A stretch of DNA of 64,000 bases, from positions 1,502,501 to 1,566,500 of the forward strand of contig JACEUQ010000002.1 in NCBI GenBank assembly GCA_024998815.1, read 5' to 3'. Below, in pieces: positions 60,604 through 64,000 of the stretch. The notes below the pieces were generated by a model that had not been told where the DNA came from, did no database searches, and saw nothing but the letters and a program-made list of their open reading frames with translations. The number at the start of each line of letters is the position of its first letter. Within the stretch, counting starts at the first letter, position 1. Origin of the DNA: Opitutus sp. Its GTDB lineage: Bacteria; Verrucomicrobiota; Verrucomicrobiia; Opitutales; Opitutaceae. A program made the position numbers and the translations under genes.

Positions 60604-60640
60604 CAAAAAAGCCCGTAAATCCTTCGATTTACGGGCTTTT
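60604..60640 (-). terminator. Rho-independent terminator next to the tRNA fragment
   Basis: GCCCGTAAAT and ATTTACGGGC (60611-60636) form a 10-bp stem with a 6-nt loop, with T-runs on both sides, so it could stop transcription in both directions. On the minus strand it lies 10 bp after the tRNA 3' end, the usual place for a tRNA terminator. Confidence 0.85.
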
Positions 60641-60646
60641 AGAAAC

Positions 60647-60671
60647 TGGCGTCCCCACGGGGATTCGAACC
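60647..60671 (-). other. tRNA 3'-end fragment: probable attachment site of a second element
   Basis: On the minus strand GGTTCGAATCCCCGTGGGGA continues as CGCCA: a T loop (TTCGAAT), the 3' side of the T stem, a 7-nt acceptor strand and CCA. The upstream minus-strand sequence (right of 60671) cannot form the 5' T stem, anticodon arm or 5' acceptor. A tRNA 3' end with its terminator but without its 5' half is the mark of an element inserted in a tRNA gene. The full tRNA is expected at the far end, outside the window. Confidence 0.7.
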
Positions 60672-60871
60672 ACTCCCAAGTAAATAGCGAAAAGCCTTCG
60701 TTTAGTGTGCTTTATATTGGTATTTAGTGGTTTGAGACAGGAAGGAAACTAACCCTAACTGCGCCTAAGTGAAGCCAGAAACACCTTTGCTGGCAAATCG
60801 CTGACAAATAATTTCGGGGGCATAAGAGGGAGGGCTGCGATTCAGGGGACGCAATCAGCGGGCAACCCTCC

Positions 60872-61470
60872 GTGCCTAAACAATCGACAAAATACGGGCT
60901 GGGTCGCGATCCGGACGACCTTCCCTTCACCCTCTTTGGGCATGAATTCATCACGCAAAAAAAACTACTCGTCAGCCCCAGTGCGCCGCGTGCGGTACAC
61001 CGTTTATTCCTGAGCCGCGTGCGGCCGGTCGGCAAAAATACTGCACCCGGCCCGCGTGCCAAAAAGTCAGCCATCAGCTGAGTCAAAAGCGTTGGCTCAA
61101 AAACAAGAAGGGCCAAGACTACCACGCCGGTTCCGCCGCTCTCAACCGCGTTCAGGAATGGCGGAAAAACAATCCGAAATACTGGCAACGGCACCTTCCG
61201 CATGCTGACACCTCCACGGATCAATCCCCTGATTTACGCTCCTTGCTGGCAGCGTTCTTTCCGCGAGATTCCTGCGCTGTGTTACAAGATTCCTGGCCAC
61301 CACAAGTCGTTGCTCTCGTTGGGATCATCGGGTGGCTCCGGGGCCATGCGTTACAAGATGTCATCGCCGCCGACTTGAACGAAATCATGGTGCGCGGAAA
61401 TGCGATCCTGCACCCCAGCCCTGCCTCGACTTCTCAACGCAAAACCCGGTCCACTCGGGCTCCTGGCTAA
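60872..61470 (+). pseudogene. Zinc-ribbon protein ORF with a frameshift at A8, upstream of the recombinase
   Basis: From GTG 60872 the frame reads MPKQSTKYGLGRDPDDLPFT as far as ITQKK, then runs into a shadow. Shifting -1 at the run of eight A (60957-60964) opens a frame with CAACGTPF...KYCTRPACQKVSHQ, a CxxC...CxxxxC zinc ribbon, then RWLKNKKGQDYHAGSA and a helical end (PPQVVALVGIIGWLRGHALQDVIAADLNEIMVRG) to TAA at 61470. The second frame has no ATG, GTG or TTG before 61243 and a stop at 60943, so it needs the first frame. Either a decayed gene or a programmed -1 shift on A_AAA_AAA. It ends 21 bp before the recombinase. Confidence 0.6.
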
Positions 61471-61491
61471 AACCCTCCTCCTGTCTTAATC

Positions 61492-63057
61492 ATGGGCGGG
61501 CCTACGCAACTCCCGCTCCCTTCGACGGGCGCCGCCGCGATCCCCGCGGCGGCCTACGTCCGCATGTCCACCGAGCATCAGCAGTACTCCACCGAGAACC
61601 AGCTCGACCGTATCAAAGAATACGCCGCCCGCCGGGGCATGGAGATCGTCCGCGTGTTCGAGGACGCGGGTAAAAGCGGCCTCAACGTGCGCGGGCGCGA
61701 GAGCCTGCGCCGGATGATCGACGAGGTCGAAAAGGGCATGGCAGACTTCAAATGCATTCTCGCCTACGACGTCAGCCGGTGGGGCCGGTTTCAAGATGCC
61801 GACGAGAGCGGCTATTACGAATACATCTGCAAGCGCGCCGGCATCACCGTCCACTACTGCGCCGAGCAGTTCGAGAACGACGGCTCCCCCACTTCGAACA
61901 TCATCAAAAGCGTCAAACGCTCGATGGCCGGCGAATACAGCCGCGAGCTTTCGACCAAGGTTTTCCAGGGGGCCTGCCGGTTGATTCAGCTCGGTTATAA
62001 GCAGGGCGGCACGGCGGGCTATGGGCTGCGCCGAATGCTGGTCGATCAGGCAGGGCAGCCCAAGGGAGTCTTGGCCGTGGGTGAACATAAAAGCCTGCAA
62101 ACCGACCGCGTCGTTCTGGCGTTGGGGCCGGATGAAGAGGTCGCGGTGGTGCGCGGGGTGTATCGTGCCTTTTTGGACGAAAGCGTGGCGGAGCAGGAAA
62201 TCGCCGACCGGCTCAATGGTCGCGGACTGAAAACCGACCTTGGACGACCGTGGACGCGGGGCACCGTGCATCAACTCCTCACCAACGAAAAATACCTAGG
62301 CAACAACGTCTATCACCGGACTTCGTTTAAGCTGAAACGGAAACATGTGCAAAACCCGCCGGACATGTGGATCCGCGTTCAGGGGGCGTTTCCGGCCATC
62401 GTGTCGGCCGAGGATTTCACCCGGGTGCAGGAGGTGATTATCGCCCGGGCGAAGCGCTTCAGCGACGATGAGATGTTGGACAAACTCAGGGATGTGCTGC
62501 GCCAACACGGGCACATTTCAGGGGTGATCATCGACGAGCGGGAGGACTTGCCGTCGAGTGCGGCTTTTAGAAACCGCTTTGGCAGCTTGGTGAGGGCCTA
62601 TCAACTGATTGGTTACGTGCCGGAAACGGATTTTAGCTTTATCGAGGTCAATCGATTCCTGCGGCAAAAACATCCGGAAGTGGTGCAAGAGGTGATCACG
62701 GAATTGGCGAAGATCGGGGTGCGGGTTCAGCGTGACCCGGAGACGGAATTATTGGTGCTGGATCAGGAGCTGGTCGTGTCGCTGGTGTTGTCCCGGTGCC
62801 TGCGCACGGAGGCGGGGTCGACGCGCTGGCTGGTGCGCTTCGAGGCAAGTAACCGGCCGGATATCACGGTTGTGGCCCGGATGGATGAAACGAATCAGGC
62901 AATTAAAGATTACTACCTGTTCCCAGCGCTCGATCAGCTGGCGTTGCGGCTACGGTTGGCCGAGTGCAACGACGCCCTGCTCGATGCCTACCGGTTCGAT
63001 GACTTGGCTTTCTTTTACGAGATGACGGAGCGGATATCAATTGAGGAGGTAGCATGA
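61492..63057 (+). CDS. Large serine recombinase
   Basis: The 521-residue site-specific recombinase has the resolvase catalytic domain at about 19-165: AAAYVRMSTEHQQYSTENQLDRIKEYAARRG with the nucleophile Ser26, then LNVRGRESLRRMIDEVEKG and ILAYDVSRWGRFQDADES. The recombinase domain follows (VRGVYRAFLDESVAEQEIADRLNGRGLKTDLGRPWTRGTVHQLLTNEKYLGNNVYHR), then a C-terminal part without the zinc cysteines of phiC31-type integrases. The ATG is 61492. It overlaps the ParB-like gene by ATGA, so the two proteins are made together. Probably moves or resolves the element. Confidence 0.92.
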   Translation: MGGPTQLPLPSTGAAAIPAAAYVRMSTEHQQYSTENQLDRIKEYAARRGMEIVRVFEDAGKSGLNVRGRESLRRMIDEVEKGMADFKCILAYDVSRWGRFQDADESGYYEYICKRAGITVHYCAEQFENDGSPTSNIIKSVKRSMAGEYSRELSTKVFQGACRLIQLGYKQGGTAGYGLRRMLVDQAGQPKGVLAVGEHKSLQTDRVVLALGPDEEVAVVRGVYRAFLDESVAEQEIADRLNGRGLKTDLGRPWTRGTVHQLLTNEKYLGNNVYHRTSFKLKRKHVQNPPDMWIRVQGAFPAIVSAEDFTRVQEVIIARAKRFSDDEMLDKLRDVLRQHGHISGVIIDEREDLPSSAAFRNRFGSLVRAYQLIGYVPETDFSFIEVNRFLRQKHPEVVQEVITELAKIGVRVQRDPETELLVLDQELVVSLVLSRCLRTEAGSTRWLVRFEASNRPDITVVARMDETNQAIKDYYLFPALDQLALRLRLAECNDALLDAYRFDDLAFFYEMTERISIEEVA

Positions 63058-63941
63058 AGCCCGGCGACGAAAAGGAAGTCGTGATGGTGCCGGTGAAGGC
63101 GGTGCGGGTGGGTAATCCGCGTGTCCGGGACCCACGCAAGTTTGAGCTGATTGTGCAGAACATCGGTGCGGTGGGCCTCAAGAGGCCGATCACCGTGACA
63201 GAGGGGCCGACGGATGAGGCGGGGCAACCGACCTATGAGCTGGTGTGTGGTCAGGGACGGCTGGAGGCGTTCATCGCGCTGGGGCAGACGGAAATCCCCG
63301 CCTTGATAAGGACGATGACGAAAACGGACAGCTTGGTTGCGAGTCTGGTGGAGAATATCGCCCGGCGGCGCATCCGCGCAGTGGACCAAATTCGCATGAT
63401 TCAGTGGATGCAGGGTCAGGGTAATTCGGTCGCGGACATCGCGCGCAAGACCGGCCTCGCCGAGGGATATCTGAGTGGCATCATCAAACTCCTGGAAAGT
63501 GGCGAGGAGCGGGTGCTGGATGCGGTGCTACAGGGGCGCCTGCCGATCACCATTGCGGTGCCGATCGCCGGTGCCGATGACGAGGAGAGCCAACGCGTTT
63601 TGCTTGAAGCCTATGAACGCAAGGAGATGAACCAGAAAACCTTGCTCACTTTTAAGCGGTTAATGGATCAACGGAAGAGTTTTGGCCGTAGTTTTACACG
63701 AGACTCACGACAGAGAGTCCGCACTCGCACCAGTGCCGACGGACTGATTCTTGCCTATAAAAAAGAAACCCAGCGGCAACGCTTGCTGGTACGAAAGGCG
63801 CAGATCGTCGAGACGCGCCTGCTCTCGCTGACGGCGGCGTTCAAGGCGCTGCTGGCGGACGAGAATTTCTCAACTCTGTTGCGCGCGGAGGCGCTCCAGA
63901 CGCTGCCTAAATTTATGGTGGAGCGGGTTCGTCAATCATGA
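63054..63941 (+). CDS. ParB/RepB-like protein coupled to the recombinase
   Basis: The 295 residues begin with a ParB N-terminal domain: MVPVKAVRVGNPRVRDPRKFELIVQNIGAVGLKRPITV, box II-like LVCGQGRLEAFIALGQTEIPALI and SLVENIARRRIRAVDQIRMI. An HTH follows (NSVADIARKTGLAEGYLSGIIKLL). The C-terminal part (SADGLILAYKKETQRQRLLVRKAQI) resembles RepB-type plasmid partition proteins. There is no ParA gene here, so classical partition is doubtful; it may bind sites used by the recombinase. The start overlaps the recombinase stop, and its own stop overlaps the next ATG. Confidence 0.85.
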   Translation: MKPGDEKEVVMVPVKAVRVGNPRVRDPRKFELIVQNIGAVGLKRPITVTEGPTDEAGQPTYELVCGQGRLEAFIALGQTEIPALIRTMTKTDSLVASLVENIARRRIRAVDQIRMIQWMQGQGNSVADIARKTGLAEGYLSGIIKLLESGEERVLDAVLQGRLPITIAVPIAGADDEESQRVLLEAYERKEMNQKTLLTFKRLMDQRKSFGRSFTRDSRQRVRTRTSADGLILAYKKETQRQRLLVRKAQIVETRLLSLTAAFKALLADENFSTLLRAEALQTLPKFMVERVRQS

Positions 63942-64000
63942 AGAGTACCGCAAAGAAAATCCTGATCGGGTTTGAAAAGCAGGCCATTGAACTGCCGTTA
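63938..64000 (+). CDS. Start of a further cassette gene, cut by the window end
   Basis: An ATG at 63938 overlaps the ParB-like stop by ATGA and opens MKSTAKKILIGFEKQAIELPL to the window edge. The opening (IxIGFEKQAIELPL) looks like the start of a second ParB/RepB-type protein, which would fit recombinase cassettes with two ParB-like genes. Only 21 residues are visible, so the family is a guess. Confidence 0.5.
   Translation, partial: MKSTAKKILIGFEKQAIELPL

Follow-up and report, generated by a model that had tools for sequence, protein, structure and literature searches.

What does a large serine recombinase do in one operon with two ParB proteins? The question is raised by a window of 64,000 nt from Opitutus sp. 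(C2:1502501-1566500 of the source genome, C2 being a contig in our numbering); the window is the whole stretch of DNA that was analysed. Near its right end a recombinase gene is followed by genes for two ParB-type proteins, ParB1 and ParB2 (RepB). A sequence-only reading had described this locus as one coupled cassette of a zinc-ribbon open reading frame (ORF), a recombinase, a ParB and a further gene. As shown below, recombinase-ParB1-ParB2 is a fixed, co-inherited and widespread unit, nearly always without ParA. The trio probably moves or rearranges DNA within anti-phage gene islands in a manner that was found nowhere described. We give about an even chance to the trio being one recombination machine, i.e. 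a compact mobile module whose recombinase needs the ParB pair and which moves itself or neighbouring cargo.

Related loci were collected with a recombinase profile. Species genomes gave at least 594 candidate stretches (559 confirmed, 80 kept), and viral contigs gave 103 recombinase relatives, of which the best 80 were kept, a good part of them near a contig end. Together with seven loci from a phylum search and the window, this makes 168 recombinase loci. ParB1 and then ParB2 follow the recombinase in every untruncated, unbroken copy. At least one ParB ORF is present in 159 of the 168 loci; eight of the other nine stop at a contig end and one (L034) is broken. ParB1 alone is found in 13 loci, 11 of which stop at or near a contig end, and the remaining two (L091, L174) look broken. 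One ParB is split between frames in five loci (L062, L065, L078, L084, L166). In the broken cassette L034 (G283), the recombinase N-terminus and the ParB2 C-terminus are oppositely oriented, as if rearranged.

Both the recombinase/ParB1 and the ParB1/ParB2 junctions are ATGA overlaps with all frames open, as read in the window and in L002, which holds the full ParB2 gene. The two overlaps noticed earlier are thus borne out. The ParB of that reading is real, and its further gene is a second ParB/RepB protein; hence there are two ParBs, not one. Among the 159 loci with a ParB, the recombinase gene ends in ATGA in 103 and in GTGA in 20, and the first ParB gene ends in ATGA in 102 of the 146 loci with two or more ParB ORFs (these counts refer to gene ends, not to the start codon of the next gene). 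A neighbourhood search for recombinase-ParB pairs joined by ATGA had been proposed, and the order does recur; because it recurs in related loci, the ATGA-joined layout is not due to chance. The overlaps suggest translational coupling only, which falls short of the synthesis in fixed proportion that had been read from them. Pairwise distances of recombinase, ParB1 and ParB2 are correlated (r = 0.77–0.86 in 92 non-redundant triplets), while 500 permutations per pair gave 0.17 or less. Gene order, overlaps and correlated protein distances all support a single coupled cassette.

The trio was found in Verrucomicrobiota, Pseudomonadota and Planctomycetota. ParB2 is matched in 20 of 387 Verrucomicrobiota genomes at E ≤ 1e-3, and in 8 at E < 1e-25, the source genome included; the source genome has no recombinase of this kind besides the window copy. 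A match is found in 658 of 5,426 complete Escherichia coli genomes (620 covering at least 80% of the query), at 659 places, all chromosomal. Where the site was readable, the E. coli copies opened lie within ssrA or tRNA-Arg islands. BL21(DE3) has all three genes, annotated whole and adjoining ssrA; the trio is absent from the 9-kb ssrA stretch inspected in K-12 MG1655. The recombinase also occurs in 61 plasmid records at E ≤ 1e-60. ParA-like ORFs are present in two of the 168 loci, 4.3 and 7.2 kb from the recombinase, and none is found in L002, which reaches 14.7 kb past ParB2. This agrees with the earlier reading, which had looked to a ParA gene and parS sites close downstream as the sign of an ordinary partition system; the comparison made here is on ParA. 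The system had also been called poorly described, and no account of the trio was found in the open-access literature searched (including PMC12839542, PMC10853773 and PMC3710099), a scope that leaves many subscription papers and preprints outside.

Resolvase (PF00239) and Recombinase (PF07508) domains are present in all 41 recombinases compared. R24, S26, D93, R96 and R99, which we take to be catalytic positions of serine recombinases, are invariant in the same 41 sequences. The four families matched by these sequences at E ≤ 0.01 do not include the recombinase zinc-ribbon domain (presumably PF13408). In its place are a helical part and a beta-rich end; in 9 of 41 sequences the helical part gives a match to PF18780, a homing-endonuclease repeat. 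The best fold matches of the predicted recombinase structure are serine integrase complexes, and a PHROG integrase is matched at 7.5e-60. The zinc ribbon of other serine integrases helps control synapsis and direction.

ParB1 aligns with Noc and Spo0J (Noc match 1.5e-11). Its conserved motifs NPRxR, CGxGR and ENxARR are near, yet differ from, the usual ParB motifs of the CTP (cytidine triphosphate) pocket, GERR and ENxQR. ParB2 has a conserved set of its own (DGHxR, C, D, TYN, R, QEHxM), in which the QEHxM pattern replaces box II. The ParB2 model has a pLDDT of 88, and its best match is a ParB with bound CDP (cytidine diphosphate) at E 2.6e-9, with a TM-score of only 0.32 over the query. KorB is also among the nearest structures, with TM-scores over the query near 0.3.

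The mechanism that would join these features is as follows. Strand exchange would be the task of the large serine recombinase. The same operon also yields ParB1 and ParB2, which would bind DNA next to the sites of recombination, probably as CTP-dependent clamps. Loaded near the ends, the pair would license or orient synapsis and so decide which sites pair or the direction of recombination, a job done in other large serine recombinases by the zinc-ribbon and coiled-coil region. A module of about 4–5.5 kb, with variable small upstream partners, would insert into or next to islands holding anti-phage systems, and the window copy would ride near the tRNA end of such an island. Every step given to the ParB proteins, and the trio's own recombinase as the maker of the insertions, we infer.

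In some lineages the trio is a separate block, recognised by its sharp ends or by empty sites. Three examples will be given. In Agrobacterium, a 3.9-kb unit (L212 9440-13342) consists of a small divergent gene, the recombinase, ParB1 and ParB2. It recurs in L216 at 96.9% identity with different flanks, and 21-bp direct repeats bound both copies. Two cassette-free plasmid loci (L217, L218) each have one of the Agrobacterium flanks with the site at that junction, and L218 has a further site 1.6 kb away. The 21-bp motif resembles a tRNA T-arm and has 41 copies in four At plasmids (NC_003064.2, NZ_CP032928.1, NZ_CP109970.1 and NZ_CP124965.1), four of which are the cassette ends; a reversed-pattern control gave none. 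The copies lie on one strand throughout in two of the plasmids and are grouped by strand along the record in the other two. A tRNA T-arm as a general rule for cassette ends was considered and rejected: over all loci the motif is no commoner within 1 kb than at 1.5–3 kb.

In Sphingobium, a 5.6-kb segment with the trio in L213 is missing from L214 between the same flanks, i.e. an empty site. Sphingobium plasmid rows H313-H327 have the same short span as L214 (H316 was aligned), and an imperfect repeat of about 75 bp contains the ends of the insert. Seven beta-proteobacterial loci share a block of about 5.45 kb at 80–95% identity with a common right end, beyond which the sequence differs. The right end has repeated ATTTCGC-like units; L079 and L114 vary here. 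As a separate observation, the right ends of L094, L105, L131 and L126 display, by eye, an imperfect inverted repeat, GCCGCTG...ACGAATG...CAGCGGC.

Several points weigh against a mobile module. The Sphingobium repeat could serve homologous recombination. Two of the 21 beta-proteobacterial pairs match further left (7.0 and 7.3 kb) and several share left-flank genes, which makes the left end less well defined than the right. In an unbiased scan, terminal direct repeats stand above both controls in 9 of 146 loci (at least 20 of 22 matches; controls 18 at most). Of these nine, four come from E. coli, where ParB2 is followed by an integrase fragment, and a further two (L170, L171) look like chance GC-rich matches. 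The window copy has no such repeat (16 of 22, the same as the control), and the terminal repeats differ between lineages. No recombination product was seen. In addition, the 3 kb upstream of the recombinase hold 28 tyrosine integrase ORFs over the 168 loci (122–157 of which have sequence there). A separate reading considered for E. coli was insertion of the trio into a tyrosine integrase gene: in strains H5 and E16 ParB2 is directly followed by a 3′ fragment of such a gene, with 245 and 175 bp matched to the upstream integrase at 80% and 84%, but a clean empty site was looked for and not found. Finally, in Opitutales the trio lies just inside the tRNA end of tyrosine-integrase islands and may be a fixed island part that is not self-mobile. 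Taken together, the comparisons moderately favour self-mobility of the trio.

The Opitutales islands bear on this last point. Because a 32-bp copy of the tRNA-Glu end in the window pairs with an intact tRNA-Glu, the window island can be measured between the two at about 39.4 kb; the cassette is about 0.3 kb inside one end. At the other end a tyrosine-integrase-like ORF (L003:19285-19989, by eye) adjoins the intact tRNA-Glu. L032 shares this plan in 9.1 kb, with 39-bp repeats (97%) at tRNA-Gly, the trio next to the tRNA fragment and, beside the intact tRNA, a frame that matches the tyrosine integrase gene of viral contig L124 (71% over about 0.8 kb). L120 and L124 have tRNA-like fragments at a similar distance; a whole tRNA was not found in either. 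The cassette was also considered as the integrase of the window island; the tyrosine-integrase-like ORF at tRNA-Glu weakens this, as does its counterpart in L032, and the trio is therefore not necessarily the integrase of the island.

Between the window and L124 the left flanks are unrelated, and the type I restriction-modification (RM) genes of the right flank are shared at 87–93%. The block that includes the cassette is more alike (96.7% over 4.1 kb) than its neighbours, but both islands are related as wholes. The direct repeat ATCCATGTAACG at the ends of L124 is not called an attachment site, since it is an abundant repeat of the window genome (32 copies with two or fewer mismatches) and since none of the cassette loci besides the window and L124 carries it (L088 has a degenerate match).

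Downstream of ParB2 in the window locus are a helix-turn-helix protein and then a type I RM operon, in which FRG and TIR genes separate those for the subunits. Beyond the operon are further genes and then, on a by-eye reading of the ORF translations, a region of prophage head and replication genes that includes a tyrosine integrase. For a wider sample, two genes per side were taken from each of 53 loci (106 + 106), namely the nearest that encode 180 aa or more; on the upstream side a distance of 500 bp or more from the recombinase frame was also required. Of these, 103 downstream and 105 upstream proteins were scanned, with three over 1,300 aa and L128:15457-19179 left out. Among the first 25 of 265 and the first 25 of 230 families in the two PADLOC lists, downstream matches at E ≤ 1e-10 include BREX, Wadjet, Hma, Dpd, DISARM, Iet, mads, Argonaute, DarG and type I/IIG restriction; upstream matches include Gabija, AbiEii, DRT helicase, mads and type IIG. 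Each listed family is matched by one or two proteins and no defence system dominates. As the sample has no random-genome control, the link to defence is descriptive only.

These flanks suggest the rival reading that survives best, though on the whole it appears unlikely: the trio would stay in its island, and its sites would insert, excise or invert neighbouring defence modules, thus swapping anti-phage genes. The many different defence systems on both flanks are consistent with this, as are the position of the trio beside an integrase or attachment end in the E. coli ssrA islands, the window and L032, the differing sequences that immediately follow ParB2 in E. coli BL21 and H5, and the many Agrobacterium motif copies away from the cassette. 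However, only the cassette itself, and no other module, is linked to movement by these sites, and defence genes cluster in islands anyway. It is rather improbable that the recombinase is an ordinary island or prophage integrase that carries two partition-type genes along. The viral-contig relatives, so often near a contig end, and the PHROG match would fit such an integrase. Set against them are the presence of both ParB genes in every complete copy, the correlated distances and the tyrosine integrase already present in the islands of the window, L032 and E. coli ssrA.

We consider it quite improbable that the trio is itself an anti-phage or anti-plasmid system, in which ParB-like nucleases and the recombinase cut or loop invading DNA. 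The position among defence genes and the unusual conserved set of ParB2 point that way; however, recombinase, ParB1, ParB2 and the zinc-ribbon protein of the window have no PADLOC match at E ≤ 1e-3, and the module occurs as a movable block in some lineages. ParA-less partition or stabilisation of an excised island, with a resolvase that splits multimers, would suit the ParB folds and the plasmid records but is very improbable in view of the wholly chromosomal E. coli copies and the near-total lack of ParA-like ORFs. The preferred reading remains that of one recombination machine with a ParB pair. A more far-reaching reading has, in our view, a slim chance: a serine-recombinase counterpart of the integron, in which recombinase and ParB1-ParB2 clamps would capture and shuffle whole defence modules at short oriented sites and so act as a general builder of defence islands. 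In Agrobacterium the site would be the 21-bp T-arm-like motif dispersed along the plasmid arms.

The zinc-ribbon ORF placed 21 bp upstream of the recombinase stands in part: the frame does end 21 bp before it, and the start assigned at 60872 is wrong and belongs to another frame. In the window the frame opens directly after a TGA that overlaps an ATG. Four sequences (window, L124, L032, L120) are alike in having an ATG or GTG that overlaps the closing TGA, then 12 nt, a run of eight A (A8) and the zinc-ribbon frame, which in all four has no ATG, GTG or TTG before the first CxxC. The omega of this frame is 0.22 for the window and L124 (1.13 and 1.28 in the two other frames of this pair) and 0.39–0.52 for the other pairs among the four. 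No family match was obtained in library scans. Because the frame lacks a start before the CxxC, the A8 layout is conserved and the frame is under purifying selection, the protein is probably made by a +1 ribosomal shift or by transcriptional slippage at A8; alternatively, a rare start codon may be used.

As a constant part of the cassette the zinc ribbon does not hold up, being one of several alternative upstream partners. Of 110 recombinase groups, 26 have a zinc ribbon directly upstream, 25 a divergent small protein (helix-turn-helix-like by eye) and 12 a different zinc-finger protein, about 204 aa long (by eye). Since this partner varies, the core consists of recombinase, ParB1 and ParB2. 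Coordinates are collected in the table below.

Table. Features of the window cassette (window positions unless stated) and the E. coli integrase fragments
Feature	Position	Strand	Remarks
Large serine recombinase, 521 aa	61492..63057	+	Resolvase + Recombinase domains; no recognised recombinase zinc-ribbon domain
ParB1, 295 aa	63054..63941	+	ParB_N + RepB domains
ParB2 (RepB), 295 aa	63938..64000 (first 63 bases)	+	full gene 63938-64825 = L002:4439-5326
Zinc-ribbon protein frame	60946..61470	+	named by eye from CxxC pairs; purifying selection
ATG 60942, 12 nt and A8 run 60957-60964	60942..60964	+	candidate programmed frameshift or transcriptional slippage site
Cassette block	60886..64000	+	96.7% identity to viral contig L124 over 4,111 bp (60886-64995)
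Left end of tRNA-Glu island	60605..60820	.	near-copy of 216 bp, 95.8%, at C2:872.6 kb, same genome
32-bp exact copy, tRNA-Glu 3′ end region	60640..60671	-	partner overlaps intact tRNA-Glu C2:1602564-1602640, minus strand
Integrase fragment, E. coli H5	NZ_CP010169.1 (L203 18422-18646)		
Integrase fragment, E. coli E16	NZ_CP119726.1 (L204 18422-18646)		

Some other observations concern the source genome. The second copy of the island left end (L206 6571-6786) lies near a regulator-like ORF and insertion-sequence-like genes, and an orphan zinc-ribbon-like ORF is found nearby at L206 10248-10805 (all by eye). At C2:968753-984597 (L231, L239) about 20 same-strand copies of ATCCATGTAACGTCCCGACCCC lie between small ORFs, some of them toxin-antitoxin-like by eye, and this looks like a cassette array. 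A full integron integrase is present elsewhere, at C1:1715052, away from the array.

How anti-phage genes gather in islands and pass between strains is an open question, and the trio is one candidate engine. Roughly one in eight complete E. coli genomes carry it, BL21(DE3) among them, so that it can be put to a direct test in a laboratory strain. Should the ParB proteins indeed steer the recombinase, ParB clamps would have a new role, and large serine recombinases, which are tools of genome engineering, would be controlled in a new way.

The trio can be compared with several known systems. Like the IS607-family transposases it has a serine recombinase in a small mobile unit; the score is 34.7 bits against a cut-off of 110, and ParB partners are found where IS607 has a TnpB-like gene. 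The likeness to integrons is that the terminal motif of the Agrobacterium At plasmids recurs as an oriented, dispersed site. This likeness is one of site distribution, and the trio has a serine and not a tyrosine recombinase and no compact array. SCC (staphylococcal cassette chromosome) recombinases have a type I RM system beside them, as the window trio has, and of the curated NCBIfam models the nearest to the recombinase is CcrB (E 1.1e-15) of the CcrA/B/C group. However, the scores are 57.3 bits against a cut-off of 900 for CcrB and 33.3 against 900 for CcrC, two ParBs are present, and the hosts differ. With the ParB CTPase clamps (Spo0J/ParB, Noc, KorB) the trio ParBs share ParB_N and helix-turn-helix domains; they differ in the lack of ParA, in the operon with a recombinase and in the replaced box II of ParB2. 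In contrast to the ParABS partition system, no ParA ATPase is next to ParB. There is also a likeness to the phiC31, Bxb1, TP901-1 and TnpX integrases, with which the recombinase shares its two domains, the invariant Ser and Arg residues and the serine-integrase fold matches, and from which it is set apart by the unmatched zinc ribbon and by its two constant ParB partners.

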